From: Acidimicrobiaceae bacterium
GTDB taxonomy: Bacteria > Actinomycetota > Acidimicrobiia > Acidimicrobiales > RAAP-2
Length of the DNA: 56,972 bases
Assembly (NCBI GenBank): GCA_003164275.1
Contig: PLSY01000157.1
Span: 1-56,972, forward strand
Direction of reading: 5' to 3'
Positions 17,391 to 41,839 of the stretch are shown in pieces. Made by a program: the position numbers and the translations under genes. The stretch's first letter is position 1, and the number at the start of each line of letters is the position of its first letter. The notes beneath the pieces are model-generated. The model saw nothing but the letters and a program-made list of their open reading frames with translations, did no database searches and was not told the DNA's origin.

Positions 17391-17457
17391 ACTTCCCCCT
17401 TTGCACTGGATCTCGGACGCCACACCCCACGCCGGACCAGCAGGCGGAACCTTATAA

Positions 17458-17471
17458 TGTAAGTGCTTACC
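17458..17471. promoter_or_regulatory. putative operator, GTAAG-TG-CTTAC palindrome
   Basis: GTAAGTGCTTAC has perfect 5-base arms around TG and lies between divergent LLM and cyclase genes, 68 bases before the LLM start. It matches the site beside the TetR gene (11325-11336, opposite strand) at 10 of 12 positions. Confidence 0.5.
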
Positions 17472-17568
17472 CTGCAACGGATGCATGGGCTGCCTAGTCT
17501 CTGCTTCAGGCGACGGACCTTGCGGCCGGGGGCTGCGGGGCGGACACGGGAGTTAGGGGGAGCGATCG

Positions 17569-18663: not shown

Positions 18664-18680
18664 ACATACGTAACGTACGT
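18664..18680. promoter_or_regulatory. palindromic site upstream of ABC binding protein
   Basis: ACATACGTAACGTACGT matches the perfect palindrome ACATATGAAACATATGT at 32652-32668 at 13 of 17 positions with the same arm and spacer geometry, 45 bases before the binding-protein start. It may bind the same or a related regulator (inference). Confidence 0.45.
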
Positions 18681-18724: not shown

Positions 18725-19984
18725 ATGCAGGCACTACGCACGAAACGCGTCATCGCTTCGATGGCGCTCGCTACATCGTTGGCTCTCGGAGTTGGGGCGG
18801 TAGGCGTACTAGCCGACTCCGTCCCGGCGTCGGCTGCCACACAGCCAAGCGGTCCTATCGTGGTCGGTGGAATCGATGCGGGCTTCAACTTCCCGGGCAC
18901 GGCCCAGGGTTTCCAGGCCCGGATCGCCCGGTTCAACAAGGCCGGTGGACTCGGCGGCCGGCAGATCAAGTTCCTCGGGGTGAGTGACGACCAGGACAGT
19001 CCGAGCTCCGAGCTGTCAGATGCACAGCAGCTGATCCAGAGTGACCACGTCTTCGCTATCACGCCGGTGGCCGATGACGTCTACGGAGGTGCAACCGCCA
19101 CTTTCGTCGATCAGAGCAAGACCCCGATTCTCGGCTACGGCGTCTCTGAGCCATGGTGCAACGACAAGTACGCCGTCAGCATCGTCGGCTGCCAGCAGTC
19201 CTCTGCCGGCTACGAGACCACTGCCTCCATCAAGCAGATCATCCAGGCGTCCAAGAAGCCGGCATCGCAGTTGCGGGTGGCCATGGAGGGATACAACATT
19301 GCCGCGGCCTTGACAGTGAGCAAGACCCTGGGCGAGGTATGGCAGAAGCAGGGTGCGAATGTCGTTCTGAACGAGAACAACATTCCTCTGACCGGGGCAT
19401 CCAGCCAGGCTCCATTCGTCCAGGCCATCCTTGCGACCAATCCCAACGTCGTCTTCGAGGTCACAGGATCGGCAGCCGCCGTCACGCTCGCCGCCGCCCT
19501 CAAGGCCGCCGGCTACAAAGGGCTCATCTACAACGGGTCCTCCTATGAGCCGGCTGCCCTGCAGAGCGAACCATCGGTTGCCTCCGCCTTGAACGGCGTG
19601 TACGTCACCAATCTCCTGCCGACGGGTTACGACAACACGCCCGCCGTCAAGCAGGAGCAGAAGGATCTGAAGGCGATCGGTGCGGTCCCTGACATCGAGA
19701 TCGGTACTGATGCCGGGTATTGGAGCGCCGACCTGTTCATTCAGCTCCTCCAGGCCACGAAGAACCGCGGAGTTGCTGTGACACCGGCGAACTTCCTCGC
19801 CACCGTGGCCAAAGGGATCACCGTGAAGCCGTCGATGTCAGGAGGCAACGGGCCGCTCACATGGCCCATGCTCGCCGACCAGCCTCAGCCGTGCAACGCC
19901 ACCGTGCAGGGTGCCGGCACCACCTACAAGCTGTTCCAGAAGTTCACCTGCTACAACAACATCAAGGTGGCCACCGGCTCGTAG
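18725..19984 (+). CDS. ABC transporter substrate-binding protein, branched-chain amino acid type
   Basis: 419 residues. A Sec signal peptide covers 1-37 (KR, hydrophobic ASMALATSLALGVGAVGVLA, cleavage after ASA), with no lipobox cysteine, so it is secreted or bound by other means. The mature part is a Peripla_BP_6 fold: PIVVGGIDAGFNFPGTAQGFQARIARFNKAGG near its start and the closing GTTYKLFQKFTCYNN. In catabolic actinobacterial loci such proteins bind aromatic or steroid-like acids, not only amino acids. No permease or ATPase gene is near. Preceded by the two palindromes and a very G-rich RBS. A paralogue is at 29881-31149. Confidence 0.9.
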   Translation: MQALRTKRVIASMALATSLALGVGAVGVLADSVPASAATQPSGPIVVGGIDAGFNFPGTAQGFQARIARFNKAGGLGGRQIKFLGVSDDQDSPSSELSDAQQLIQSDHVFAITPVADDVYGGATATFVDQSKTPILGYGVSEPWCNDKYAVSIVGCQQSSAGYETTASIKQIIQASKKPASQLRVAMEGYNIAAALTVSKTLGEVWQKQGANVVLNENNIPLTGASSQAPFVQAILATNPNVVFEVTGSAAAVTLAAALKAAGYKGLIYNGSSYEPAALQSEPSVASALNGVYVTNLLPTGYDNTPAVKQEQKDLKAIGAVPDIEIGTDAGYWSADLFIQLLQATKNRGVAVTPANFLATVAKGITVKPSMSGGNGPLTWPMLADQPQPCNATVQGAGTTYKLFQKFTCYNNIKVATGS

Positions 19985-20953: not shown

Positions 20954-21709
20954 TTGACGGCTGACGAAGAGCGAAGTGGCAGAGTCACGGGCCGGAAGGT
21001 CGTGGTGGCCGGGGCCTCGGGCCCGGGGGCGGGCATCGCCAACGGCCTTGCCGCACGTGGCGCCGAGGTTGTCGTCGTCGGTCCGGCCGCGAGCGAGAAG
21101 GGACTCGACTCCGGCGTCAGCCGAGTTGTCTGCTCGCTGGCCACTGAGCCCGAGGTGACAGCCGCCATGGCCAGCGCCGTCGACCGGCTCGGCTCCGTCG
21201 ATCAGTTCGTCTACTCCTGGTATCCGGAGCAGTTGACCGCCAAGACGACATTCACCGAGCTGACCGAAGACCAGTGGGCCACCGCATGCGAGGGAACGCT
21301 CGGAACGGCATGGTGGTCGGTGAGAGCCCTCATCCGGCCAATGAAGGCGGCGGGCGGCGGCTCCATGGTGTTCGTCGTCCCGACGGTCGGCATGTCCGGT
21401 GCCGCCAACTTCGTCATGCTGTCAACGGTGGCAGAGGGGCTCAGGATGCTGGCCAAGGGGTGTGGTCGGTGCTGGGGCGCAGACGGCGTCATTGTCAACA
21501 CCTTGGCCACCTCCCCGGGCCTCTGGGTCGATGTCGAGCATGGCAACCGCCTCCTCCGGGAGATCTCCCTCTCCGTTCCGGCCATGGGCCGGGTGGGCGA
21601 CCCGGCCGAGGATCTCGCCCCGCTGGTCGGTCTCCTGGGTGCTGACGATGCCCACTTCCTGACGTCGAGCACATTGGTGGCCGACGGCGGCCTGTGGATG
21701 GGGCTGTAG
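20954..21709 (+). CDS. SDR-fold protein without catalytic Tyr/Lys (probable partner subunit)
   Basis: 251 residues, TTG start with GGGGGAG upstream. The Rossmann start VVVAGASGPGAGIANGLA and the end TLVADGGLWMGL are SDR-like, but where classical members have NNAG this protein has VYSWYP (86-91), the catalytic Ser region reads VVPTVGMSGA, and the YxxxK motif is replaced by NFVMLS (152-157). It is unlikely to catalyse hydride transfer alone. The next gene, 3 bases downstream, is a fully equipped SDR; together they resemble heteromeric SDRs such as BbsCD, in which one subunit is inactive. First gene of the run SDR-like, SDR, SnoaL, acyl-CoA ligase, VOC. Confidence 0.85.
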   Translation: MTADEERSGRVTGRKVVVAGASGPGAGIANGLAARGAEVVVVGPAASEKGLDSGVSRVVCSLATEPEVTAAMASAVDRLGSVDQFVYSWYPEQLTAKTTFTELTEDQWATACEGTLGTAWWSVRALIRPMKAAGGGSMVFVVPTVGMSGAANFVMLSTVAEGLRMLAKGCGRCWGADGVIVNTLATSPGLWVDVEHGNRLLREISLSVPAMGRVGDPAEDLAPLVGLLGADDAHFLTSSTLVADGGLWMGL

Positions 21710-21711
21710 GG

Positions 21712-22518
21712 ATGACGGATCTCGAGGGCTACACACCGCCGGTCGACCAGCCGACAGACCTGCTGGCCGGAAAGACGGTCATCGTGACGGGGGCTGGTGG
21801 GGGCGTCGGCCTCGGCATCGCCTTGTCCTGCGCAACCCACGGAGCAAACGTCGTCATCGCGGCGAGAAGGATCGAGACCGGGGACGAGGTGGCCAAGCTG
21901 ATCACCGACCGGGGCGGGAGTGCCCTGTCACTGCGGTGCGATGTCACCTCGTCCGATGACGTGTCGGGCGTCATCGCTGCGGCGATCGAACGATTCGGAG
22001 GCGTCGACTCCGTCATCCACAACGCCGTTGCTCCTGTGGGCGAGCCCCACATCGTCGAAGACGTGCCCGACGAGACGTGGAACGCCATGATGAGCACGGC
22101 GGTGCGAGCGTCGTACTACTTGGCCGAGGCGTCCTACGAGCAGTTGCTCGAGCGCCAGGGGACGTTCATCTTCTTGACGTCGGCTGCCGGGGTGGAGGGA
22201 AGCCCCTACATCCCGGCCTACGGCGTGGTGAAAGCGGCTCAGCGAGGCATGGCAAAGAGCCTCGCTCGCGAGTGGGGCCCACTCGGCATCAGAGTCAACT
22301 CCATTGCCCCAGTGGCACTGACGCCGGCCATGGCGGTGACCGCGCAGAACAGCCCGGTGTTCACTGAGGGACGGCTCATGGATCGCACGTCGCTCCGACG
22401 GTTCGGGGACCCCGAGACCGACATCGGGCCGGTCGCCGTCTTCTTGATCAGCGACCTGTCGCGATATGTGGCCGGGCAGACCGTCGTGGTCGACGGCGGC
22501 GGCTTCACCGCCTTTTGA
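21712..22518 (+). CDS. SDR family oxidoreductase (catalytic)
   Basis: 268 residues starting MTDLEGYTPP, ATG two bases after the stop of the preceding SDR-like gene. TGAGGGVGLG (26-35) binds the cofactor, Arg52-53 after strand 2 (AARR) suggests NADP, HNAVAP replaces NNAG, and Ser157-Tyr170-Lys174 form the active site. The C-terminus VAGQTVVVDGGGF is typical. It probably oxidises a hydroxyacyl-CoA or reduces a ketone in the same pathway as the acyl-CoA ligase two genes further on. Likely heteromeric with the upstream SDR-like protein (inference). Confidence 0.92.
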   Translation: MTDLEGYTPPVDQPTDLLAGKTVIVTGAGGGVGLGIALSCATHGANVVIAARRIETGDEVAKLITDRGGSALSLRCDVTSSDDVSGVIAAAIERFGGVDSVIHNAVAPVGEPHIVEDVPDETWNAMMSTAVRASYYLAEASYEQLLERQGTFIFLTSAAGVEGSPYIPAYGVVKAAQRGMAKSLAREWGPLGIRVNSIAPVALTPAMAVTAQNSPVFTEGRLMDRTSLRRFGDPETDIGPVAVFLISDLSRYVAGQTVVVDGGGFTAF

Positions 22519-22602
22519 CACCGGTCGCCGCCTGGAGCCACCCACAGCAGAGTCACATGGTGCCGGCTGGGGCGCCACTGAGCACAAACAAAGGGGTCAA
22601 CG

Positions 22603-23058
22603 ATGGCTGATGACCGTGGGGAGATCGAGAACCTCCTCGCCCGCTATTGCGAGCTGTTCGACTCGGGGGACATGGAGAACTATGTCGCCCTGTTCTCCGA
22701 CGCCAGCATCGCCAACCAGTTCGCCACCTCGGAGGGCCCCGAGGCACTCCAGAAGTTCTTCGACGAGAACGGACTGTTCTATGACGGGCTTCCCCACACC
22801 CGCCATGTCATCACCAACCTGCACATCGAGGTGGCAGACGACGGGATGACGGCTGAGGCCAGGTCGTACGTGACCATCTTCCAAGCCCTCTCGGACTTCC
22901 CCTTACAGCCCATCTTCATTGGGCAGTACCAGGACGAACTGGTCAAGCTGGACGGGGCATGGCGCTTCCGGTCCCGAGCTTGCGAGCCGTTCTTGGCCGG
23001 CGACCTGAGCCGCCATGCCCGTGAATATCCGCCACCTGGACCGGTCGTGGTCGGATGA
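22603..23058 (+). CDS. SnoaL/NTF2-like protein
   Basis: 151 residues of the SnoaL-like type: EIENLLARYCELFDSGDMENYVALFS at the N-terminus, TRHVITNLHIEVADD in the middle, and the closing DGAWRFRSRACEPFLAGDLS. The D-G-D helix and the TRH segment resemble small ring-hydroxylating-dioxygenase beta-like or dehydratase members (scytalone-dehydratase type), where His and Asp do acid-base work. Its stop overlaps the start of the acyl-CoA ligase by 4 bases (ATGA), so the two are coupled. Confidence 0.88.
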   Translation: MADDRGEIENLLARYCELFDSGDMENYVALFSDASIANQFATSEGPEALQKFFDENGLFYDGLPHTRHVITNLHIEVADDGMTAEARSYVTIFQALSDFPLQPIFIGQYQDELVKLDGAWRFRSRACEPFLAGDLSRHAREYPPPGPVVVG

Positions 23059-24620
23059 CGACGGGACACAGCTTCTGGGAGGAGCTGGTCGCCCGTGTGG
23101 CCGAGACGCCGGACGTGCTCCTCGCCATCGACGAGCGGGGCGTCCAGATCACCTTCGGCGAGTACCGCGAGCGTGTGGAGATCGTGGCGGCCGGACTAGC
23201 CGGCCACGGGATCAGCGACGGTTCGGTTGTGGTCTGGCAGCTGCCCACCTGGATCGAGTCGATGGTGCTACTCGGCGCCCTGGCCCGCTTGGGGGCGGTG
23301 CAGGTACCACTCATCCCGAGCTACCGGGCCCGAGAGGTGTCCTTCATCGTCCACCAGACCGGAGCTCAGCTCTTGGTGGTCCCATCGATGTGGAAGAAGT
23401 TCGACTACCCGGCCATGGCCGAGGAGATCGCCCGGAGCGAAGAGGGTCTCGACATCATGGTCTTGGATGCGGAGACACGGGTACTTCCGACGGGGGACCC
23501 CGCCACCCTCCCACCGGTGATCGGACCGGCCACCGACAAAGAGGACGTCCCCGTGCGTTGGGTCTACTTCACCTCGGGGACCACAGCATCACCCAAGGGA
23601 ACGAGACACACCGATGCCACGCTGATCGGTGCCGTCCCCGGGATGCTCGGTATGGTCGATCCCGCTCCCGGGGATCGCAGCACCCTCGTCTTCCCGTTCG
23701 CCCACATCGCCGGCGTGGTGTGGCTTCTCACCAGCTTTGCCGCGGGGTCCACCCATCTGTTGGCCGAGGCCTTCGATCCGGCCGTCACCATCCCGATGCT
23801 GGCGGCCAACGGGGTCACCCTGGCCGGTATCGGGACACCCTTCAATCTCGCCTATCTGAAGGCCCAGCGGGAGCTTACCCAGGTCAGCCCCGGAACCCGG
23901 CTGTTCCCTCGGATCCGGGCCTTCCTGTCCGGCGCGGCCCCTAAGCCGCCGAGCCTGCACGCCGAGCTCCGAGCCGAGCTCGGGGGCACCGGCATCGTCT
24001 CCAGCTATGGCATGACCGAGGCGCCGATCATCACCTACTGCGGGATGTCGGCCGCCGACGGGCATCGTGCGGCCACCGAGGGCTGTGCCTCGCCCGGTGT
24101 GGAGATCAAGTTGGTGGCCGAGGACGGCTCACTTGCCGCTACCGGCGAGCCCGGGGAGATCCGGATGAAGGGGCCGCAACTGTGCAAGGGCTATCTCGAC
24201 GCCTCGCTCAACGAAGCGGCCTTCGACGCCGACGGCTTCATCCGCACCGGTGACCTCGGGACCCTCGACTCCGAAGGGTTTCTCACCATCGTCGGCCGCC
24301 TGAAGGACGTCATCATCCGCAACGGCGAGAACATCTCGGCGAAGGAGATAGAGGACCTTCTCTTCCGCCATCCAGCCGTTGGTGACGTCGCCGTCATCGG
24401 CGTCCCCGACCTGAAGGTGGGGGAGCGGGCCTGTGCGGTGGTGGCGCTGGCCGGGCCCGGCACATCGTTCAGCTTCCAGGACATGGTGACGTACCTGAAG
24501 AGCAACGACCTGATGATCCAAAAGCTCCCCGAGCAGCTGGAGATCCTGGACGCCATTCCCCGCAATGCCGCCGGCAAGGTCCTGAAGGACCAGCTTCGCA
24601 AGCATTTCGCCGACGCATGA
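23055..24620 (+). CDS. AMP-dependent acyl-CoA synthetase
   Basis: 521 residues with all ANL motifs: WVYFTSGTTASPKGTRHTD (P-loop-like), SSYGMTEAPI, FIRTGDLGTLDSEGFL, VGRLKDVIIRNGENISAKEIE, and the C-terminal IPRNAAGKVLKDQLR with the catalytic lysine intact, unlike the ligase at 13123-14796. It converts a carboxylic acid to an acyl-CoA using ATP. It overlaps the SnoaL gene by 4 bases and is followed 10 bases later by the VOC gene, at the end of the plus-strand operon from 20954. Confidence 0.94.
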   Translation: MTTGHSFWEELVARVAETPDVLLAIDERGVQITFGEYRERVEIVAAGLAGHGISDGSVVVWQLPTWIESMVLLGALARLGAVQVPLIPSYRAREVSFIVHQTGAQLLVVPSMWKKFDYPAMAEEIARSEEGLDIMVLDAETRVLPTGDPATLPPVIGPATDKEDVPVRWVYFTSGTTASPKGTRHTDATLIGAVPGMLGMVDPAPGDRSTLVFPFAHIAGVVWLLTSFAAGSTHLLAEAFDPAVTIPMLAANGVTLAGIGTPFNLAYLKAQRELTQVSPGTRLFPRIRAFLSGAAPKPPSLHAELRAELGGTGIVSSYGMTEAPIITYCGMSAADGHRAATEGCASPGVEIKLVAEDGSLAATGEPGEIRMKGPQLCKGYLDASLNEAAFDADGFIRTGDLGTLDSEGFLTIVGRLKDVIIRNGENISAKEIEDLLFRHPAVGDVAVIGVPDLKVGERACAVVALAGPGTSFSFQDMVTYLKSNDLMIQKLPEQLEILDAIPRNAAGKVLKDQLRKHFADA

Positions 24621-24630
24621 GCATGCCCAG

Positions 24631-25095
24631 ATGACCGAGGGCGTCGACCGGATCCACCATGTGGTGTGGTGCGTGGCCGCAGACAGCCTCGAGGCCGTCC
24701 GCCGCTACTGGGAGCGCGCCCTCGGCCTCACCATGGTGGACATCGACCTGCCCGACCGGGGCCTACACGTCCTGTTGGCGTGGGATGCGGGCATCGAGAT
24801 CGTCGCCCCGACGTACGCCGAGGGCGGGGGAGCCGACGAGGTCCGATCCGTGCTCGCTGAGCAAGGGGAGGGCGTTTACACCGTGGTCTACAGCGTCGCC
24901 TCGATCGAGGAGTCAGGGGCCAGACTGGTGGCCGAGGGCGCCACACTTACCTTTGCGGAGACCGTACCCTCCGACGTGGTCCGGGCCCGGGGGATCGTGG
25001 CTGACGGCGCTCCGAGCTTCACCATCCGCCAAGCCCAATATCGGGATGCCGTCGGGATGGGCATCTGCCTCCAAGAGCTCGTCGCCGACCCCTAG
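24631..25095 (+). CDS. VOC family (glyoxalase-fold) protein
   Basis: 154 residues with two beta-alpha-beta-beta-beta modules: RIHHVVWCVAADSLEAVRRYWERALGLTM with GLHVLLAWDAGIEIVAP, and GEGVYTVVYSVASIEESGARLVAEG ending with VGMGICLQELV. The His at HHV and Glu near the C-terminus fit a metal site. Functions include epimerase (methylmalonyl-CoA type), dioxygenase and isomerase; the spacing after an acyl-CoA ligase favours a CoA-ester epimerase, but this is inference. Last gene of its operon, convergent with the thiolase-like gene. Confidence 0.87.
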   Translation: MTEGVDRIHHVVWCVAADSLEAVRRYWERALGLTMVDIDLPDRGLHVLLAWDAGIEIVAPTYAEGGGADEVRSVLAEQGEGVYTVVYSVASIEESGARLVAEGATLTFAETVPSDVVRARGIVADGAPSFTIRQAQYRDAVGMGICLQELVADP

Positions 25096-25114: not shown

Positions 25115-26281
25115 TCACTCGGTTCGCAGGATGAGGCCCTGTGGATTGAAGAAGAAGCCGCCGGAGGCGACGAGGGCCGTGCGGGCCCCTTCGACCTGGC
25201 GATCGGCCGCATCGCCCCGCAGCTGGGTGACGGCCTCGCGTACGTAGCCAGAGCCCCTGGTGGCCCCTTCGGCCAGCGCTCCGCCGTGGGGGTTGAGAGG
25301 CACGCGCCCATTGATCAGCACACGATCCGTGTCTTTGTCCCAGTGCTCGCGGAGGAAGTCTCCCGCCTCACCAGGGCCACACCAGCCGAGGTTCTCGATC
25401 CAACCGAGCGTGATGATGGTGAACCCGTCGTAGGGGAGGAACACGTCGGTGTCCTCCAGCCACAGGTCACTCTTGTCCCTCAGGTTCTTCGCTACCACGT
25501 GCTGGCCGTGATGTTGGAGGTCGATGAGTTGATCCTCGGCCAGGCACGCTGCAGTGCCCGTGCTCGAAGCGTGGAGGAGCACGGAAGGGTGAGGCAGGTC
25601 CCGGGCCCGCTCGGCCGTAGTGAGGATGAAGGCGTCCGCTCCATCGGTGGGGATGTCCATGTCGAGCATGCCGAAGGGTTCGCGGATCATTCGGGCTGAC
25701 AGGTACTCGTCCATGGTGATCGGGTCACGCAATGTGGCCAGGGGATTGCGGGTGCCGTTGCTCCGGGCGTTCACTGTGACCAGCCCGAGGTCCTCTCTGG
25801 TCCGCCCGTACTCGTGCAGGTAGCGGCTGGCCCAACCCGTATAGGCCACGGCATTGCTCATCGACTCCGGGCTGGCGGATACGCCGGTCGTGTAGTGGCG
25901 ACGAAAGGGGTCGGCGGCCGCCCCCCTCGAGTTCCAAGGAAGGCGGTACACCGAGTTGTACAGCAACACGGTGTCGGCCGAGCCGGAGAACACCGCGTTC
26001 ATGGCGTCGATCAGCGCGAACATGACGACCGGCGTGGTCTTTGGATAGTGGGTCACGTCACTGAGGCCGAGCATGGCCGCCAGCTGCTGTGGCGCCGGGG
26101 CGGCGGGCTCACCGGTAGACACCACGCCGTCGATGTCCTTGGCGGTGAGGCCGGCATCCCGGATGGCCGACGCCGCCGCCTCGGTGGCGAGCGACGCAGG
26201 AGTCCGTCGGCCATGCCGGTCGAAGCCGGTGGAGCCGATCCCGACAATGGCCACCTGGTCCTTGATCGGATTACGAGCCAT
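25115..26281 (-). CDS. thiolase-fold protein (lipid-transfer/Ltp2-like), no nucleophilic Cys
   Basis: 388 residues from MARNPIKDQVAIVGIG. The fold is thiolase of the SCP-x/lipid-transfer branch: TEAAASAIRDAGLTAKDIDG, YDGFTIITLGWIENLGWCGPGEAG and NPHGGALAEGA are conserved. In a true thiolase the nucleophilic Cys lies near residue 90; here that stretch reads THYPKTTPVVMF and no Cys is near. The gene overlaps by 11 bases the DUF35 gene upstream. In steroid side-chain degradation the Ltp2/ChsH2(DUF35) pair is just such a Cys-less thiolase plus DUF35 and acts as a retro-aldolase, so an aldol lyase on a beta-hydroxyacyl-CoA is the best guess. Confidence 0.9.
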   Translation of the reverse strand: MARNPIKDQVAIVGIGSTGFDRHGRRTPASLATEAAASAIRDAGLTAKDIDGVVSTGEPAAPAPQQLAAMLGLSDVTHYPKTTPVVMFALIDAMNAVFSGSADTVLLYNSVYRLPWNSRGAAADPFRRHYTTGVSASPESMSNAVAYTGWASRYLHEYGRTREDLGLVTVNARSNGTRNPLATLRDPITMDEYLSARMIREPFGMLDMDIPTDGADAFILTTAERARDLPHPSVLLHASSTGTAACLAEDQLIDLQHHGQHVVAKNLRDKSDLWLEDTDVFLPYDGFTIITLGWIENLGWCGPGEAGDFLREHWDKDTDRVLINGRVPLNPHGGALAEGATRGSGYVREAVTQLRGDAADRQVEGARTALVASGGFFFNPQGLILRTE

Positions 26282-26753
26282 GAACGGCACCTGCTTCTAC
26301 GCTTGGGTCGAGGTGGAAGACAGGGTAGGGCGCGCCGCCCCGATCGACCCAGGCCAACGAGACGGACTGGCCGATTCGGAGGTCCTCGGGTGGGCATCCG
26401 ATGACGGTGGAGGTGAACCGGAGGCCGACTTGTTCGACCAACTCGACGGTTGCCACCGGGTGCGGTCCCTCGGTGTAGTCGACCCCCGGGGCCGGGGCAC
26501 CCTGGTGCACGAGGATGAGGAGATGGATCGTGCCCTGTCCCGAGACCTCGGTGGGCACCACGTCGAACGACCAGCACTTAGGACAGAGGGGGGCAGGGGG
26601 GTGGTGCCAATGGCCGCATTCGGCACACCTGGAGAGGAGTAGTCGCTCCTCTAGCCATCCTCGGTAGAGCTCGATGCTGTCCAGATCAATGGGTGTGGAC
26701 GGATAGCGCTCGAGAACGTCGGTGTCGGTGAACTGGGTTGTGCGCTCGGGCAC
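26271..26753 (-). CDS. Zn-ribbon OB-fold (DUF35) protein
   Basis: 160 residues, GTG start with AAGGAGGG before it. An N-terminal helix (IELYRGWLEERLLL) leads to a zinc ribbon with Cys43, Cys46, Cys57 and Cys60 (SRCAECGHWH, PLCPKCWSFD), then an OB-fold domain with VSGQGTIHLLILVHQG and YPVFHLDPS. DUF35 proteins bind CoA esters and form obligate complexes with thiolase-like subunits. The 11-base overlap with the thiolase-fold gene makes a stoichiometric complex very likely. Two 11-base direct repeats lie upstream of its RBS (26768-26792). Confidence 0.93.
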   Translation of the reverse strand: MPERTTQFTDTDVLERYPSTPIDLDSIELYRGWLEERLLLSRCAECGHWHHPPAPLCPKCWSFDVVPTEVSGQGTIHLLILVHQGAPAPGVDYTEGPHPVATVELVEQVGLRFTSTVIGCPPEDLRIGQSVSLAWVDRGGAPYPVFHLDPSVEAGAVHGS

Positions 26754-26822: not shown

Positions 26823-27272
26823 CTAACCAGCCAGTGTCGAAGGGAGGCCGCCGCTCAGTGGGTCGATGCCGATACGCGTGAGTACCAGGTGGCGGATACG
26901 CCACGACCCGTCTTGGCGAACGTAGCGCTCGTGATAGTGGCCATAGCCAATGAAGCCGACCGGCTCCCCTTCGCTTGGGAAGACGAGATAGTCGCGCATG
27001 GCCCAGATGCCGATGGCCTCGTCGGGCCCGGTGATCGTGATCTCAGGCATGAACCCGTGGTGCACGGTGCGGACGTCAGCCAGGATCTCGCGCATGGCGG
27101 CGATGAAGGCGTCCCTCCCGTCGAACGGGAAGCCATCGGCCTCGGTGTGGATGTCCTCGGTGAAGACGTGCCCCCAGGTATCCCACTCCTTTAGGTCGAG
27201 TCCCCTGAAGTACCGGGCCTTCAGCTGCTTAATCTCTTCGATGTCCATCAACCGGCGAATGTCGGCGTCCAT
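26823..27272 (-). CDS. SnoaL/NTF2-like protein
   Basis: 149 residues: MDIEEIKQLKARYFRGLDLKEWDTWGHVFTEDIHTEADGFPFDGRD-type opening, then TVHHGFMPEITITGPDEAIGIWAMRDYLVF, and the closing strand SWRIRHLVLTRIGIDPL. The ARYFRGLDxKEWD and VHHG segments are those of the actinobacterial SnoaL-like group related to scytalone dehydratase and to ring-hydroxylating-dioxygenase small subunits. It lies between the amidohydrolase and DUF35 genes in the minus-strand operon starting at 31149. Confidence 0.88.
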   Translation of the reverse strand: MDADIRRLMDIEEIKQLKARYFRGLDLKEWDTWGHVFTEDIHTEADGFPFDGRDAFIAAMREILADVRTVHHGFMPEITITGPDEAIGIWAMRDYLVFPSEGEPVGFIGYGHYHERYVRQDGSWRIRHLVLTRIGIDPLSGGLPSTLAG

Positions 27273-27326: not shown

Positions 27327-29033
27327 TCAGCCGCCCTGGTTGAACCGGAGCACGGTGCCACTGGTCGCCCCGGTGGGCTTGCCGTCGTCGATGACCACCT
27401 GGCCGGCCACGATGGTCGCCTGGTAGCCCGTCTCGTCGAAGACCAGGCGGGCGGCCCCGGTCGGAAACTCCCGGTCGAGGCGGGCCGGGCCCACGCCTAG
27501 GTTGTCCCGGTCGAGAAGCAACAGGTCGGCGGCCGCCCCGGGGCGGATGACCCCCCGGTCCCACAGCCCGACGGTCATGGCCGGCACCGAGGTGAGTTTC
27601 CTGATGGCATCCTCGAAACTGAAGCCCTCCTCGCCGGCGTACTCGGTCAGGATCCTGGTCGTGTAGTCGGCCCCGCAGAAGGTGTTGACGTGGGCCCCGC
27701 CGTCGCTCGACCCTGGCGTGGTGAGCGGGTGGCGGAGGAGCTCGGCGATGACGTCGTGGTCCTCTTTCGTGACCGGCCGGTCGATGATGAAGATGGTCTC
27801 CAGGTCCTCTTGCATGGACAGGTCCAAGAAGGTGTCCATGGGGTCGGCACCCCGCTCTGCGGCCAGCTCGGCCACCGTCTTGTCCAGCCAGCCGTTGTGT
27901 GCCTCGTCCCGCACGCCGACCACCCGGAAGTTGTCCCAGCCGAAGGCCAGCTGGCGGAGGTGGCCGGGGTCGTCGAACTCGAGGCGCAGTGCGTCTCTGA
28001 CCTCGGGCCGGTTGAGCGCCGCCTTGCGCTCTTCAACGGTGCCGGCCAAAGCCCGCCTAAAGGTGGGCATCTCGTCCAACATGCCGGTGTCGGCCAGGGC
28101 CACGTGGAGACCCTTCGGGTTGGCCGAGGCCATGGGATAGACCCGCAGCCCCTCCCTCGAGTACTCCTCCAAGACGTCGAGGCAGTCCCGCCAGGCATCG
28201 GGGGCGTTGGTGAACCGGAGCAGCGGGTTGACGTGGAGGGGCTTGCCCCCCGAGGTGACGGCCATGCCCCGGAGCAGGTCACGGTCGGCCTGGTCATAGC
28301 CGACGGCGAAGCTCTGGCACAGGTGCTCCATGATGCCCTCGTCGTAGCGGCTAAGCACGGTGGTCAGGGCCAGGATCTCCTCGGGGCTGGCCAGGTTGGA
28401 GGGGATGGGCTTGCCCTCGTGGTCGGCGTGGACGTCGAGCTGGGAGGTGGAGAAGCCGACCGCCCCCTGGCTCATGCCCTGGTCGACCAGGGCGGCCATC
28501 TGGGTGATCTCCGAAGGCGTCGCCGCCCGCTCGGAGGCCTCAGCCCCCATCACCCAGCGCCGGATAGCCGAGTGGCCGACGTAGTAGGCCATGTTGACCC
28601 CGATGCGGCCGTCCAGATTGGCCATGAAGTCCCCGACGCTGCCGCCTTCGAAGTCGACGCCCTCGGTCAGGGCCTCGGCCGACATGCCCTCCACCTTGGC
28701 CAGCATGAGCACCAGCCAGGGGAGGTCCTCGGGTTTGGCCGGCGACAGGGCGAAGCCGCAGTTCCCGGTGAGCACGGTGGTCACCCCGTGCCACGACGAC
28801 GGGGAGGCGGAGGACTCGAAGTGGAGCTGGGCGTCGTAGTGGGTGTGGACGTCGACGAAGCCCGGGGTGAGGACCAGGCCGTCGCCGTCGATCACCTTGT
28901 CGGCCGTCGCCCCCTTCAGGCGGCCGACCTTGGTGATCCGGCCGTCAGCCACGGCGACGTCGCCGACAAAGCCGGGCATCCCCGTCCCGTCGACGATCTC
29001 GGCACCTTTGATGAGCAGTTCGGACTGCGTCAT
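27327..29033 (-). CDS. N-acyl-D-amino-acid deacylase-type amidohydrolase
   Basis: 568 residues from MTQSELLIKGAEIVDG (AGGGGGTC before the ATG). TIM-barrel amidohydrolase of the D-aminoacylase branch: VDVHTHYDAQLHFE gives the metal pair His63/His65, GNCGFALSPA contains Cys92 as in D-aminoacylases, and HPLTTPGSSDGGAH carries the later metal/acid residues. It would hydrolyse an amide or cyclic ester/amide bond. Length is in the usual range. In the operon between an SDR and a SnoaL gene; the presence of a deacylase in a CoA pathway is unusual and suggests an N-acyl or lactone intermediate, or release of an acyl conjugate. Confidence 0.9.
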   Translation of the reverse strand: MTQSELLIKGAEIVDGTGMPGFVGDVAVADGRITKVGRLKGATADKVIDGDGLVLTPGFVDVHTHYDAQLHFESSASPSSWHGVTTVLTGNCGFALSPAKPEDLPWLVLMLAKVEGMSAEALTEGVDFEGGSVGDFMANLDGRIGVNMAYYVGHSAIRRWVMGAEASERAATPSEITQMAALVDQGMSQGAVGFSTSQLDVHADHEGKPIPSNLASPEEILALTTVLSRYDEGIMEHLCQSFAVGYDQADRDLLRGMAVTSGGKPLHVNPLLRFTNAPDAWRDCLDVLEEYSREGLRVYPMASANPKGLHVALADTGMLDEMPTFRRALAGTVEERKAALNRPEVRDALRLEFDDPGHLRQLAFGWDNFRVVGVRDEAHNGWLDKTVAELAAERGADPMDTFLDLSMQEDLETIFIIDRPVTKEDHDVIAELLRHPLTTPGSSDGGAHVNTFCGADYTTRILTEYAGEEGFSFEDAIRKLTSVPAMTVGLWDRGVIRPGAAADLLLLDRDNLGVGPARLDREFPTGAARLVFDETGYQATIVAGQVVIDDGKPTGATSGTVLRFNQGG

Positions 29034-29098
29034 GACGACCCCCTGGGACTTGACGACGTGGCGATTCAATCAGGCTCAACTCGATCCAACAAGGCGGA

Positions 29099-29884
29099 TC
29101 AACGCATGGTGACCCCGCCATCGACGGAGATCACCTGGCCGTTGACGAAGGCAGCGTCCGACGACAACAGGTAGGCCACGGCCGCGGCGATGTCATCGGG
29201 CTCGCCGAGGCGGCCAGAGGGGTTCTTCGCCTCTCGCTTGGCCAGCAGCTCAGACATGGAAGCGGCCGCCGTGTCGGTGAGTATGAGCCCGGGCGCGACC
29301 ACGTTGCAGCGAATGCCCTCCCGTCCCCAGCGATTGGCGACGTGACGGCTCACGGCGTTGATGGCTGCCTTGGCTGCGCCGTAGGCCGGGCGGTTGCGCT
29401 CGCCGACGAAGGCGGCGCCCGAGCTGGTGTTGACGATGGAGCCGCCACCCCGGGCGAGCATTAAGGGGATGGCCTGGCGCATGGCCAGGACGTAGCCCCG
29501 CACGTCGACATGCATGGTCCGGTCCCAGACCTCTAAGTCGATGTCGAGCAGGTCGGTGTCCCGGCCGAGGGTTCCAGCCGACAGGTCGGCCGCCACATTG
29601 TGGAGGAGGTCGACGCCGCCGAAGGTCGACGAAACCTCGGCGAAGAGCCGTGCCACCGACTCCTCGTCGGCCATGTCGCAGGCGATGGCGATGGCGGAGT
29701 CGCCGATCTCCTCGCTTACCCGCAACGCGGCGGCCGGATCAATGTCGGCCACGGCCACCTTGGCCCCTTCGGCGGCGAGCCGTCGTGAGCTGGCGGCACC
29801 GATTCCGTTGCCACCGCCCACGACGACTGCCACCTTCCCTGTGAGACGGTCCAGAGCGGACGGCCCCTGCGACGATGGGCTCAA
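29099..29884 (-). CDS. SDR family oxidoreductase
   Basis: 261 residues. GGGNGIG (23-29) binds the dinucleotide, D47 (ADIDP) indicates NAD, HNVAA stands for NNAG, and Ser155-Tyr168-Lys172 are in place. The C-terminus FVNGQVISVDGGVTMR is typical. The start overlaps the stop of the ABC binding-protein gene by 4 bases (ATGA), so binding protein and SDR are translationally coupled, an unusual combination that ties this transport protein to this pathway. Confidence 0.92.
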   Translation of the reverse strand: MSPSSQGPSALDRLTGKVAVVVGGGNGIGAASSRRLAAEGAKVAVADIDPAAALRVSEEIGDSAIAIACDMADEESVARLFAEVSSTFGGVDLLHNVAADLSAGTLGRDTDLLDIDLEVWDRTMHVDVRGYVLAMRQAIPLMLARGGGSIVNTSSGAAFVGERNRPAYGAAKAAINAVSRHVANRWGREGIRCNVVAPGLILTDTAAASMSELLAKREAKNPSGRLGEPDDIAAAVAYLLSSDAAFVNGQVISVDGGVTMR

Positions 29885-31149
29885 CCCGACGTGCTCGTCG
29901 TGGTCTTGATGGCGACGTTCGGGTAACAGGCGTAAGGGACCTTGACCTTGTACTGCGAACCCGACACCACCATCAGCGTGAGCCCGATGATGCCGTCCTT
30001 GTGGGCGGCGGGGAAGGTCTGGCTGCAGGCACCACCCTTCAGCGTCTGCTGGTACGTGAAGCCGCTGTTGGCCGCTTGGGTGATACCGGCCCCGGTCAGG
30101 GGAGCTCCCTTTTTGGCCGCGTTCTGGAGCATCTGGACCAGCATGTCCGCGGTGTAGTAGCCGAGCGAGGCGCCCAGGCCGACCGGCTGGGCCTTGCCGA
30201 TGGCCTTCAAGTCCGTACTGAGCTGCTTGATTGACGGGCTGTTGTCCTCGGCCGCCGGCATCTCTGAGTTGACCACCTGACCCTGGAGCGCCGCCTTGAC
30301 GCTCGGCTGGGTCTCGAGGATGCCCTCGCTGTAGCCGACCGGGCTGTAGAGGATGGTCTTCACCCCGGCGGCCAGGAACGCTGCGCTCAGTCCCGTAGCC
30401 GAGGCGAAGTCGAGCGAGAGAAAGACGACGTCGGGCTTGGACGCCTCGATCTGCTGCACGTAGGGCGCATAGTTGGTCGACGTGCCGGCGATGGGAACGA
30501 TGCCCTTGTTGAACACGACCTTCATGCCGACGGCCTCGAAGAGATTGGCCTCATAGGCCCCGGACGCCGCTGCCGTCGGGATGTCACCGTTGACGATGGC
30601 GACCGTCGTCTGGGACGGCTTCTTCGGTGCCAGGTACTTGGCCAGGGCCCCACCGGTGGCGAGGGACACCTTGCCGTCGGTGAGGATCAGGCATCCGTCC
30701 ACCGAGAAGGCGTAGGGAACGTTGCACCAGTCCGGCGCCAGTCCCCACCCGAGGAACGGCACCTTCTGCGCGGCGAGGAAGGTGGTCGCCGACGGGTTGA
30801 AGACCTCGGACACGACCGGGGCCACGATGTCCACGTGCTGCTCTTGGACGAGTGACTCAGTGAGGGTCTGGTCCCGGGACGGGTCACCGCCGTCATCTTG
30901 TACGCCGATGAACTGGACCTTCCTACCCTCGACGCCTCCGGCTTTGTTGAACCGGGCGATCCGGGCGTTGAAGCCGTCAGCCAGGCCCGGATAGTCCGCA
31001 GCCTCGGCAATGCCGCCGACCACGATCGGCGCTTTCGAGCTACTGCTCGTGGCGGCAACCGCCGTCGTGGCCGGCAGGGCCACGGTGGAGACCCCCACCA
31101 CCAGCGCCCCGACCAAGGTGATCCAATGATGCCTACTCTTCCATTTCAT
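29881..31149 (-). CDS. ABC transporter substrate-binding protein, branched-chain amino acid type
   Basis: 422 residues from MKWKSRHHWITLVGA (GGGGGAAAAC before ATG; an earlier in-frame start adds four residues). The signal peptide ends near AVA at 30-32; no lipobox. The mature part is Peripla_BP_6: PIVVGGIAEAADYPGLADGFNARIARFNKAGG and a C-terminal KVPYACYPNVAI that mirrors the FTCYNNIKVATGS end of the paralogue at 18725-19984. It is the first gene of the six-gene minus operon binding protein, SDR, amidohydrolase, SnoaL, DUF35, thiolase-fold. No permease components nearby. Confidence 0.9.
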   Translation of the reverse strand: MKWKSRHHWITLVGALVVGVSTVALPATTAVAATSSSSKAPIVVGGIAEAADYPGLADGFNARIARFNKAGGVEGRKVQFIGVQDDGGDPSRDQTLTESLVQEQHVDIVAPVVSEVFNPSATTFLAAQKVPFLGWGLAPDWCNVPYAFSVDGCLILTDGKVSLATGGALAKYLAPKKPSQTTVAIVNGDIPTAAASGAYEANLFEAVGMKVVFNKGIVPIAGTSTNYAPYVQQIEASKPDVVFLSLDFASATGLSAAFLAAGVKTILYSPVGYSEGILETQPSVKAALQGQVVNSEMPAAEDNSPSIKQLSTDLKAIGKAQPVGLGASLGYYTADMLVQMLQNAAKKGAPLTGAGITQAANSGFTYQQTLKGGACSQTFPAAHKDGIIGLTLMVVSGSQYKVKVPYACYPNVAIKTTTSTSG

Positions 31150-31219
31150 GTTTTCCCCCAATAGGTTGATGCTTCGTTAGGTCACGAACTGTTGCCCTCG
31201 AACCTCGCAAGGAGCTGGT

Positions 31220-31471: not shown

Positions 31472-32638
31472 CTAGTTGGCCGTGAGCGAAGAGTAGTCGG
31501 CCCGATGTCCTCGAGCCTCGAGCTCGGGGATGACCTTGGTGCCGAGCAGCTCGATGCTGCGCATCACCTTTTCGTGAGGGAGCATGCCGAACTGTGAGTA
31601 GCACAGCAGGTGGTCGATCCCCGCTTCCTCATAGCGGAGGATCTTCTCCAGGCACTGTTCGGGAGTCCCGATGATGATCATGTCCTCGTCTTGGTACTTC
31701 TGGACGTCGATGTTGCCCCCCAAGATGTCCTTCAAAAGCGGGAAGACGCCTTCTTGCTCCTCGGGGGTCAGGTTGGGCAGCTCCCACTCCAAGGTGAACT
31801 CGGCGTTGTTCTTGTACCACCAGTGCACGGAGTCCCAGAGCCCGTAGGCCGCGGCCTCGTCCATGTCGTCACAGCAGTGGACGAGGGTGTACGCCCCGGC
31901 CCGGTCGTTCCGCACCCGGGTCAGCAGCTCCGATGCCCCTTTTGTCTTGGCCTCCGCCTGGGCCTGGCGGTAGCCCTTGACAATGTCGGCCATCACCTCG
32001 ACCGGCTGGAACAGGGCGAACGACAGGAGTCCGAGCCCGAAGCGTCCGGCATTCGCCGCCGACGCCTCGCTGGCCGCGGCCAGCCACACAGGGGGGTGCG
32101 GGTCCTGGTAGGGCTTCGGGGTCTGCATCCGCTCGGGGAAGGTGAGCAAGGGGCTGTCCCAGCTGAACCGCTCCTGTTCCCACATGCGCACCACGATCTC
32201 TACCGCCTCTCGCCACTGGGCTCGCGAGCGGTCGTCAATCGGCACCCCGAAGGCCACCTGTTCCATCGGCGTCGAGCGACCGGTGCCCCACTCGACCCGG
32301 CCATGGCTCAGCACGTCGACCGTGGCCACCTTCTCAGCCACCCGAGCCGGGTGCTGGAAGCCGGGGGGCATGAGCGAGACGCCGAAGCCGAGGCGGATGT
32401 TCTCGGTGGCGAGAGCGAGCCCCCCGAGCACCACCTCGTTGGAGGGACAGGCCGAGCGGCTGTCTCGGAAGTGGTGCTCGACGCACCAAACGGTCTGAAA
32501 GCCCAGCGTGTCAGCCAGTTTGATCTGGGCGATGCCCTCGTCGTAGACGGCCTGCTCGGCGTGGCGCTGGCCGTAGGGGTGAGGCTCCTTCCAGGGCTTC
32601 ACCTTCGGCTGGAACTCGTACAGCAGATCGAGCTTCAT
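31472..32638 (-). CDS. LLM class flavin-dependent oxidoreductase
   Basis: 388 residues from MKLDLLYEFQPKVKPW (GGGGGAAG before ATG). Luciferase fold: TVWCVEHHFRDSRSACPSNE, TENIRLGFGVSLMPPGFQHPARV, VLSHGRVEWGTGRSTPME and FLEKILRYEEAG-like segment ECLEKILRYEEAGIDH. It is related to a different branch (MKLDLLYE type) from the MEFGIFIQGY paralogues. The perfect 17-base palindrome 32652-32668 lies 14 bases upstream of the start, downstream of the IclR gene on the same strand, so IclR is likely to control it. Confidence 0.93.
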   Translation of the reverse strand: MKLDLLYEFQPKVKPWKEPHPYGQRHAEQAVYDEGIAQIKLADTLGFQTVWCVEHHFRDSRSACPSNEVVLGGLALATENIRLGFGVSLMPPGFQHPARVAEKVATVDVLSHGRVEWGTGRSTPMEQVAFGVPIDDRSRAQWREAVEIVVRMWEQERFSWDSPLLTFPERMQTPKPYQDPHPPVWLAAASEASAANAGRFGLGLLSFALFQPVEVMADIVKGYRQAQAEAKTKGASELLTRVRNDRAGAYTLVHCCDDMDEAAAYGLWDSVHWWYKNNAEFTLEWELPNLTPEEQEGVFPLLKDILGGNIDVQKYQDEDMIIIGTPEQCLEKILRYEEAGIDHLLCYSQFGMLPHEKVMRSIELLGTKVIPELEARGHRADYSSLTAN

Positions 32639-32651
32639 CTTCCCCCATCTC

Positions 32652-32668
32652 ACATATGAAACATATGT
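32652..32668. promoter_or_regulatory. perfect palindrome, putative IclR operator
   Basis: ACATATG-AAA-CATATGT, 7-base perfect arms around AAA, directly before the LLM gene. Its complement contains ATGTTTCATAT, which occurs again (11 of 11) at 33689-33699, in front of the LLM gene on the other side of the IclR gene. Confidence 0.6.
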
Positions 32669-32713
32669 TGCGTCCGTGACCATACAGTGACGGACGGGGG
32701 CGAGCAAGGGACT

Positions 32714-33613
32714 CTAGGGCCGGCCAAGATCCTCCCGCTCCAGGGTGTGCGATGCCGCTTTGGCCGCTTCGATCAGCCGCTTACCGATGGAATCGATCTC
32801 CGCCTCGACGAGGGGGGTCTCAAAACCGACCAGGGTGATGGCGGCCACCACACGGTCGGCGTTGAACACCGGTGCGGCGATGAAGACCACCCGGTGCTTG
32901 GCGTCGGGCTGGACGTCGATGAGGGAGTAGTCGTCGCTGCTCGACTCCCGCAGGATGCTCAAGACATGGTCCGACGCATCCTCTTCCTCGGCCGTCTCCT
33001 CCATGCCCGAGGACACCGCCTCCAGGATCTTGGCGTAGACGTCGGACTGCACGCCGACCGAGTAGCCGCGCCTCTTGATGGCGGCCGCCGATTGGCGGTG
33101 CCGGGCGGCCTTGGCCTCGTCGTCGGGGCCGCCATCCGATCGATTGATCCAGTCCTCGATCTCGGACGGCGACGACCAGGCCACATAGACGGCTCCGACT
33201 GGGGCGACGAAGGGGACCTTCTGGCCGACCTCGAGACCGAAGAGGGGGACGCGGTGGTACGAGGCGGCCAGCTCGACGATGTAGCCGCCGATCGGGGCAG
33301 AAATGTTCCACTGGAGGTCGAGCTCCGCGGCCAGCTTCGACACTTCGGTAGTAGCCGCGCCGATCACCCGGAACCGGTCGCTCGCTGCCGCCCCGAGTCT
33401 GATGAGGGCAGGGCCCACCGAGTAGCGCTTGTGCACTGGGTGGCGGGACACCAACCCTGACTGCTCCAGAGTGTGGAGGATGCCCGAGCAGCTGGCCTTG
33501 TTGTGGTCGATGGCCCGGGCGATCTCGGAGAGTGTGTACTCCGACCTCGGGTCGTCGGCCAGGAACTCCATCATCTCCGCGGCATATCTGACTGCAGGTG
33601 CGGAGCGGGCCAT
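32714..33613 (-). CDS. IclR family transcriptional regulator
   Basis: 299 residues. Winged helix-turn-helix at about 6-68 (YTLSEIARAIDHNKASCSGILHTLEQSGLV, wing HPVHKRYSVGPALIRLG) followed by the GAF-like effector domain, with DRVVAAITLVGF near the C-terminus. IclR proteins respond to aromatic or acyl metabolites. It sits between two LLM genes, each preceded by the shared sequence ATGTTTCATAT (33689-33699 and, reversed, 32654-32664), so it most likely controls both and itself. Confidence 0.93.
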   Translation of the reverse strand: MARSAPAVRYAAEMMEFLADDPRSEYTLSEIARAIDHNKASCSGILHTLEQSGLVSRHPVHKRYSVGPALIRLGAAASDRFRVIGAATTEVSKLAAELDLQWNISAPIGGYIVELAASYHRVPLFGLEVGQKVPFVAPVGAVYVAWSSPSEIEDWINRSDGGPDDEAKAARHRQSAAAIKRRGYSVGVQSDVYAKILEAVSSGMEETAEEEDASDHVLSILRESSSDDYSLIDVQPDAKHRVVFIAAPVFNADRVVAAITLVGFETPLVEAEIDSIGKRLIEAAKAASHTLEREDLGRP

Positions 33614-33681: not shown

Positions 33682-33699
33682 GAAACGAATGTTTCATAT
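33682..33699. promoter_or_regulatory. putative IclR operator in divergent promoter
   Basis: GAAAC-GAAT-GTTTC (33682-33695) is a perfect 5-base-arm inverted repeat and overlaps ATGTTTCATAT (33689-33699), which is shared with the palindrome at 32652-32668. It lies between the divergent IclR and LLM genes. Confidence 0.55.
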
Positions 33700-33744
33700 A
33701 TGCTGCAATAGGGACCCGGGGGAGGTTCCCACGAAGGGGAGACC

Positions 33745-34878
33745 ATGGAACTCGGCATTTTCATCCAGGGCTATGTGCCGGAGTCGAGGCGCCAGTCGAC
33801 GCCCGATGCAGAGCACTGGGTGCTCATGAAGGAGCTGGAGATCGCCGTGGCCGCCGACCGGGCGGGGTTCAAGTACGTGTGGGCCAGCGAGCACCACTTC
33901 TTGGACGAGTACTCGCACCTGTCGGCCAACGACGTGGTCCTGGGCTACCTCGCCCACGCGACCGAGCGGATCCACCTCGGCTCGGGCATCTTCAACCCGT
34001 TGGCGCCGGTCAACCACCCGGTCAAGGTGGCCGAGCGGGTGGCCATGCTCGACCACCTGTCCGGCGGTCGCTTCGAGTTCGGCACCGGCCGTGGGGCCGG
34101 GAGCCATGAGATCCTCGGCTTCCTGCCAGGTATCGAGGACATGAACGGCACGAAAGAGATCTGGGCCGAGACCATCGGCGAGTTCCCGAAGATGTGGCTG
34201 CAGGACGAGTACGAGGGCTTCGACGGCAAGTACTGGTCGCTCCCACCCCGCAAGGTCCTCCCCAAGCCCTGGGGTCCCGGGCACCCGGCCATGTGGTACG
34301 CCGCCGGCAACACCCCGAGCTACGCCATGGCCGCCCGGATGGGACTCGGCGTGCTCGGGTTCTCGGTCGGTGCCGTGCCCGACTTGGAGCCGGTGCTGAA
34401 GGCCTACAAGGCCGAGATCGTGAATGCCGAGCCGATCGGGGCGTTCGTGAACGACAATCTGATGGTCACGACCAAGGCGTTCGTCGCCGAGGACTCGGCC
34501 CGGGCCCTCGAGGGTGCGGTGGCCGCCCGCATGAACGACATCCAAACCCAGTCGTTCCGATACCACGACACCTTCCCCCACCCCGAGGGCGTGCCTCCGT
34601 GGCCGGAACGCATCCCGGACTTCACGCCTGAGCTGATGCGGGAGATGGCGAGCGTCGGGTCGGTCATCCTCGGGGACCCCGACGAGGCCCTGGCCCAGGT
34701 GCGGATGTGGGAGAGCGCCGGCGCCGACCAGCTGGTGTTCGCCATGCATCCAGGTCTGCCCGACGACACGATCTTCGAGACCATCCGGCTCCTCGGCGAG
34801 CATGTGATCCCGAAGGTCGACCCCGATCCGGTCCACCGCACCACGCGTTTTCGCCAGGCCGGCGGGACGACGGTCTGA
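33745..34878 (+). CDS. LLM class flavin/F420-dependent oxidoreductase (MEFGIFIQGY paralogue 2)
   Basis: 377 residues with GAAGGGGAG upstream. It is very like the copies at 16248-17390 and 35975-37102 along its whole length: MELGIFIQGYVPESRRQS, YVWASEHHFLDEYSHLSAND, HLGSGIFNPLAPVNHPVKV, RFEFGTGRGAGSHEILGF, HPAMWYAAGNTPSY, SFRYHDTFPHPEGVP and a C-terminal HRTTRF. Monooxygenase or F420-dependent oxidoreductase; a hydrophobic substrate is inferred from the pathway. It is divergent from the IclR gene and followed after 165 bases by the mycofactocin-type SDR. Confidence 0.93.
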   Translation: MELGIFIQGYVPESRRQSTPDAEHWVLMKELEIAVAADRAGFKYVWASEHHFLDEYSHLSANDVVLGYLAHATERIHLGSGIFNPLAPVNHPVKVAERVAMLDHLSGGRFEFGTGRGAGSHEILGFLPGIEDMNGTKEIWAETIGEFPKMWLQDEYEGFDGKYWSLPPRKVLPKPWGPGHPAMWYAAGNTPSYAMAARMGLGVLGFSVGAVPDLEPVLKAYKAEIVNAEPIGAFVNDNLMVTTKAFVAEDSARALEGAVAARMNDIQTQSFRYHDTFPHPEGVPPWPERIPDFTPELMREMASVGSVILGDPDEALAQVRMWESAGADQLVFAMHPGLPDDTIFETIRLLGEHVIPKVDPDPVHRTTRFRQAGGTTV

Positions 34879-37102: not shown

Positions 37103-37183
37103 TGTTCGAACCCCCAAGATTCGCAAGTGGATACTGCGGCTAATTGCCCGTCAGCGTAGGCGATTGCTCGAAGCGTTGCGAAC

Positions 37184-41808: not shown

Positions 41809-41839
41809 TGGGCAGCCCAGTGAGGGAGAGGGGCGCGAG

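Follow-up and report, generated by a model that had tools for sequence, protein, structure and literature searches.

The gene pair and its active site

The contig PLSY01000157.1 of an Acidimicrobiaceae bacterium, 56,972 nucleotides long and here called the window, contains two adjoining genes on the minus strand, one for a thiolase-fold protein without the nucleophilic cysteine of a thiolase and one for a protein of the DUF35 type. The former lies at 25115-26281 and encodes 388 residues from the ATG at 26281. The mechanical open reading frame (ORF) opens at a GTG at 26290 and comprises 391 residues; the residue numbers used here refer to this longer frame. The closest homologs among the matches listed (P0001-P0004), however, have 388 residues each, which suggests the ATG as the translation start. 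The DUF35 gene (26271-26753) codes for a stand-alone protein with a zinc ribbon (CX2CX10CX2C) and an OB fold; it lacks a MaoC hydratase domain. With the ATG start the genes share the 11 bases 26271-26281, which agrees with the overlap given in the initial annotation. Pfam assigns PF22691 to the thiolase-fold protein and PF12172 plus PF01796 (zf-ChsH2 and OB_ChsH2_C) to its partner, the latter with 49.6 and 38.1 bits at cut-offs of 23.2 and 27.1.

The thiolase-fold protein has two cysteines only. One is at position 249; the other, C304, sits in a G[FW]C stretch (GWC or GFC) that is also found in the Ltp2 of Thermomonospora curvata (TcLtp2), away from the nucleophile place. Residues were counted in 121 aligned rows, the query and the best 120 of 1697 homologs. 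All 120 are at least 61% identical and have the motif YDGF. Columns 76-96 are free of cysteine in 120 of the 121 rows, the window protein included; the sole exception is P0074, with a cysteine in column 82. Nearest to the nucleophile place, 66 rows have Thr, and most of the others have Ala, Ser, Gln, Met or Pro. The alignment of this loop is ambiguous by 1-3 residues, since gap placement varies, but this leaves the conclusion unaffected, because there is no cysteine nearby. The nucleophilic cysteine is thus missing, as had been proposed at the outset from THYPKTTPVVMF (residues 80-91).

The classical thiolase motifs are HDCF/NEAF and GHP. Here the place of the HDCF-type motif is taken by YDGF (residues 287-290) and that of GHP by EGATRG, the histidine being replaced by Ala or Gly. 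Tyr294, the base in the YDHF motif of Ltp2, aligns without gaps to Y287, which is kept in all 121 rows. A 36-row alignment, with relatives as distant as about 50% identity, shows Y287, N333, H335 and E341 to be invariant and T344 and R345 to be conserved in at least 90%; apart from Y287, these residues belong to NPHGGALAEGATRG (333-346).

The best sequence match in the PDB is the same for both subunits: 6ok1, the Ltp2-ChsH2(DUF35) aldolase, to which the predicted fold of the thiolase-fold protein is also closest. The proposed thiolase fold and kinship to the Ltp2-DUF35 system are borne out in this respect.

Relatives of the pair

The DUF35 gene is a regular companion. It is found directly upstream and on the same strand in 17 of the 18 family copies with surroundings, and in both copies added later (19/20). 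The only copy without it (L041) lies on a contig that ends 221 bases past the thiolase match; in L049 the DUF35 match is a fragment of 53 bits. One locus, L004, was left out of the counts, being cut by a contig end to 141 matching bases. All 34 aligned rows of the partner keep the zinc cysteines, spaced in the C4 pattern that has been reported for TcChsH2.

The family is sparse in the genomes searched. Two overlapping draws from the class of G004 yielded 12/296 and 14/395 genomes (E up to 1e-90 and 1e-100, respectively), a phylum draw 3/396 (E up to 1e-90), and a single order 7/58 (E up to 1e-110). Five loci in named genomes are from Actinomycetota, four being labelled Acidimicrobiia or Acidimicrobiales; the names given to homologs further refer to Deltaproteobacteria (thiolase) and to Gammaproteobacteria and Myxococcota (DUF35). 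One 104-kb contig (G023, C2) carries three family copies (15451-16596, 88067-89212 and 98618-99772), a local expansion.

Two trees were built. The first had 42 rows, comprising paralogues from four genomes, family members from others and PDB references; its long branches were L023, L021, L020, Sal, L017, BbsB and 7yvy. The second (34 rows) was made without L017, L020, L021, L023, L024, L025, Sal and BbsB. In the 42-row tree the window family forms a group of 21 rows with support 100/100. Its sister group consists of six YDGF paralogues (L010, L012-L015, L018), which likewise lack a cysteine at the nucleophile place and, unlike the window family, have Arg at the place of Tyr344 of Ltp2 (NxxGGQLSxGR). 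The 27 rows hold together with 98/90, and with 99/96 in the second tree; L023, also a YDGF protein, is next outside (96/89, first tree). In some members of this second YDGF clade a DUF35 match adjoins the gene, e.g., at G003:C105 and G002:C49.

TcLtp2, in contrast, pairs with L019 (100/100 and 100/99 in the two trees), and a clade of just the 21 family rows, TcLtp2 and L019 was rejected in the 34-row tree (p-AU 0.006). The initial annotation had taken Ltp2 as the model for the window protein. Because of the separate YDGF clade and the rejected grouping, the family is, as judged from the trees, a relative of Ltp2 outside the Ltp2 clade.

The presumed operon and its amidohydrolase

The pair stands at the end of a longer row on the minus strand. 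It starts with a Peripla_BP_6 substrate-binding protein of the branched-chain amino acid transporter type (29881-31161) and continues with a short-chain dehydrogenase/reductase (SDR; 29099-29884), an Amidohydro_3 protein resembling D-aminoacylase (27327-29069), a SnoaL_4 (NTF2-like) protein recognised by Pfam (26823-27272), DUF35 and the thiolase gene; the successive gaps are -4, 29, 54, 69 and -11 bases. The row is presumably transcribed as one unit. The amidohydrolase scores above the PF07969 cut-off and matches D-aminoacylase (PDB 1m7j) with E 2.5e-33, the best stretch covering residues 16-218 only. It has the motifs HTH (75), GNCG (102) and SDG (455), which would provide metal ligands as in D-aminoacylase. 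On the plus strand, a convergent row (20954-25095) of SDR (20954-21709, by eye), SDR, SnoaL_4, acyl-CoA (coenzyme A) ligase and glyoxalase/VOC-like genes ends 19 bases from the thiolase gene. It is a plausible source of the CoA-activated substrate.

The initial annotation had joined the pair to an amidohydrolase and a binding protein. The same-strand row in the window agrees with this; in the relatives the link mostly involves another amidohydrolase family. Neighbours were searched for with phmmer, three proteins of these loci serving as queries (>40 bits); Pfam confirmed PF04909 in only four copies (L045, L047, L048, L049). A relative of the Amidohydro_2 type (PF04909) occurs within 5 kb in 11/18 copies, where 2.1 are expected from genome densities, and within 1 kb in 8/18 (0.9 expected); neither count was reached in one million simulations. 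With doubled density the 5-kb test still gave P 0.0002 at 3.9 expected. One of the two later copies, L079, adds to this (12/20 within 5 kb): its PF04909 relative follows the thiolase match at a distance of about 47 bases, and the locus also has a relative of the window Amidohydro_3. The P-values can serve as a guide only, because the test treats loci as independent while L045, L046, L053, L054, L055 and L079 share one gene order, because the idea arose from these same loci, with a small held-out check whose one positive has the shared order, and because the densities may be too low, as at most 84 candidates were scored, a number reached in four genomes.

A fixed partnership with the PF07969 amidohydrolase was considered and rejected. 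Relatives of the window enzyme lie within 5 kb of the pair in 1/18 copies (L042) and in one of the two later ones (L079), and these two loci carry both amidohydrolase types; no PF04909 relative was found in the window. Close copies of the window enzyme occur in 17/395 class genomes (E up to 1e-170). Four of the 17 draft genomes (G032, G048, G127, G150) also have the thiolase-DUF35 pair, always on other contigs; two further contigs, of 1,085,774 and 184,094 bases, have homologs of both, as judged only by equal sizes. The amidohydrolase link is therefore a recurring theme, mostly of the PF04909 type, and not a fixed operon. Other neighbours are less regular (CoA ligase 3/18, either acyl-CoA dehydrogenase 7/18, SDR 6/18). 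In the six loci of shared gene order a DUF1214 protein stands on the opposite strand beside the pair, in the five other than L079 at 491-652 bases from the thiolase match.

The window has some further features. A second Peripla_BP_6 protein is encoded at 18725-19984; a Pfam scan of 40 window ORFs revealed neither a permease nor an ATPase of an ABC (ATP-binding cassette) transporter. Luciferase-like monooxygenases (PF00296) are numerous, with five in 57 kb (3217-4311, 16248-17486, 31472-32707, 35975-37126, 37687-38610) and probably a sixth at 33745-34878. A CoA-transferase III relative (42789-44045, plus strand) and a cytochrome P450 relative (14960-16258, minus strand) are each overlapped by a longer ORF on the opposite strand. 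The luciferase-like gene at 31472-32707 contains, within its mechanical ORF, the palindrome CATATGAAACATATG (32653-32667); the next in-frame ATG that would suit as a start (near 32638, by eye) follows about 15 bases later. A copy with 3 mismatches (33686-33700) is located between a gene of the IclR type (32714-33613) and a gene on the plus strand at 33745. The pattern has three matches, two being the same site on both strands, at 0.14 expected. The palindrome is possibly an operator of the IclR regulator. A similar-looking CATACGTAACGTACGT (18665-18680, by eye) precedes the binding-protein gene at 18725.

Proposed reaction, alternatives and known systems

The predicted fold, the missing nucleophile, the kept tyrosine and the conserved DUF35 gene lead us to consider it somewhat probable that the two proteins form a heteromeric retro-aldolase similar in kind to Ltp2 and Sal; its reaction, complex and substrate class are here inferred by analogy. 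The acyl-CoA ligases and dehydrogenases of the window would make CoA esters, to which a hydratase would add a hydroxyl group at the beta carbon. The thiolase-fold protein would bind the beta-hydroxyacyl-CoA, Tyr287 would act as the base that takes the beta-hydroxyl proton, and the bond between C-alpha and C-beta would break, giving an acyl-CoA enolate together with an aldehyde or a ketone. Candidates for the protonation of the enolate are Tyr287 itself, His335, Thr344, Arg345 or water. The DUF35 protein would shape or complete the pocket and be needed for activity. The amidohydrolase and the SDR of the operon would probably act just before or after the cleavage; as no MaoC gene was seen among the 40 scanned ORFs, the amidohydrolase could provide the hydration, or else it could act on the product. 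CouO, of the amidohydrolase superfamily, has been assigned to the last deacetylation step of hydroxycinnamate catabolism in Rhodococcus (PMC4737184), and its homologue HpeF is a predicted beta-ketoacyl-CoA hydrolase (PMC9618137). Members of this superfamily thus take part in side-chain C-C cleavage.

A number of observations weigh against the retro-aldolase. The oxyanion residue of Ltp2, His296, corresponds to Gly289 in 121/121 rows. Its catalytic acid, Tyr344, corresponds to position 343, which is Ala in 102 rows, the window protein included, and Gly in 19. Only half of the supposed match to the catalytic tyrosines of Ltp2 is thus left, namely Y287. Nor does Sal provide a substitute: its Cys304 (in YDCY), which is essential (PMC12329534), also falls on Gly289. 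With all three missing, the proton donor has to be assumed, and the active site appears, by its residues, unlike that of either characterised aldolase. The best-scoring curated model, the lipid-transfer protein PRK07855, reaches 221 bits at a cut-off of 469, and in the fold comparison other thiolase-fold entries, true thiolases included, score high too. The second tree does not resolve how the Ltp2 rows, L011, L016/L022, 4u4e and the YDGF clade are joined. None of the 40 scanned ORFs of the window matched a MaoC hydratase; two crotonase-type hydratases are encoded at 1461-2270 and 41720-42604. KshA_C is matched in 8/15 pair-carrying draft genomes, in some of them weakly. Finally, retro-aldol cleavage by a thiolase fold was demonstrated, in the literature examined, for steroid enzymes only.

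How do the alternatives fare? The databases suggest an ordinary acetyl-CoA acetyltransferase or 3-ketoacyl-CoA thiolase: among the matches listed, named homologs are mostly called "acetyl-CoA acetyltransferase" or "thiolase family protein", and the fold would fit. The empty nucleophile place, YDGF instead of an HDCF-type motif and the lost histidine of GHP make this extremely improbable. Such genes evidently carry their labels despite missing the residues of the thiolase mechanism. A true Ltp2 orthologue that cleaves the C3 side chain of steroids is very improbable as well, even if 6ok1 is the best match throughout. The trees set the window protein apart, Tyr344 and His296 are lost, the fusion of MaoC with DUF35 is absent, and KshA_C was not found in 7 of the 15 draft genomes; its presence in only 8 argues against a purely steroid role. 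That the protein is a dead scaffold, or an acyl-CoA carrier for its operon partners, would explain the vanished thiolase motifs, but is improbable in view of the polar site residues that persist among distant relatives.

More weight, though we still consider it unlikely, is due to the view that the thiolase-fold protein performs another reaction of CoA esters (C-C bond formation, decarboxylation, hydrolysis or isomerisation), while the adjoining amidohydrolase cleaves the C-C bond in the manner of CouO. Two proton-handling residues are indeed missing, Amidohydro_2 relatives are near the pair in 12/20 copies, the accounts of CouO and HpeF mentioned above would fit, and TbSLP, which is devoid of the thiolase cysteines, reportedly decarboxylates malonyl-CoA, albeit very slowly (PMC12329534). 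The tyrosine base in every row and a DUF35 partner as in aldolases speak against it, and the likeness to CouO is drawn from published descriptions.

The retro-aldolase reading may be carried one step further, to a speculative and rather unlikely proposal. The YDGF clade could represent a third active-site solution, relying on a single tyrosine, or else on the loop of residues 343-346 around Thr344 and Arg345, and using neither known acid. Metal-dependent amidohydrolases coupled to it would stand in for the absent MaoC hydratase and hydrate the enoyl-CoA, much as LigJ, a hydratase of the amidohydrolase superfamily, acts ahead of an aldolase; alternatively, they might hydrolyse the cleavage product. 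The whole would amount to a module for C-C cleavage outside steroid metabolism, spread over several bacterial groups. Ltp2 and Sal already differ in their acids. A clade with yet another set of residues would show that the fold changes its chemistry easily, and would draw attention to pathways of C-C cleavage, in Acidimicrobiia above all.

Among known systems, Ltp2-ChsH2 of T. curvata (6ok1) is the nearest. It shares the thiolase fold, the absence of the nucleophilic cysteine, the tyrosine base in YDxF, the NxHGG motif and a C4-zinc DUF35 partner. It differs by YDHF instead of YDGF, by Tyr344 instead of Ala/Gly, by a partner fused to MaoC and by its clade; steroid genes were not recognised in the window. 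Sal-Shy of Comamonas testosteroni (9myr) likewise has a Cys-less nucleophile place, an equivalent tyrosine (Tyr302), a DUF35 partner and no Tyr344. Its acid, however, is the Cys304 that is Gly289 here, and the zinc site of Shy is of the C3H1 type and accompanied by a MaoC domain, whereas the window partner has C4 and no MaoC. The putative thiolase of Sphaerobacter thermophilus (4u4e), second-best in sequence, has the fold, no cysteine at the aligned place and YDSF, but stands outside the family.

The initial annotation knew of no earlier description of the arrangement. In openly licensed full texts we found no paper combining thiolase, DUF35 and amidohydrolase, and the titles and abstract openings listed from this literature yielded no non-steroid Cys-less thiolase/DUF35 aldolase. 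The aldolase-DUF35 operon as such, however, is already in print for steroids. According to a report on Mycolicibacterium neoaurum (PMC10398937), Atf1, 56% identical to Sal1, acts on sterol side chains and shares one operon with a reductase and the stand-alone DUF35 gene of ChsH4, which is without a MaoC domain. By this description, the Atf1-ChsH4 operon resembles the window in its separate DUF35 gene, its aldolase of the same superfamily and its reductase.
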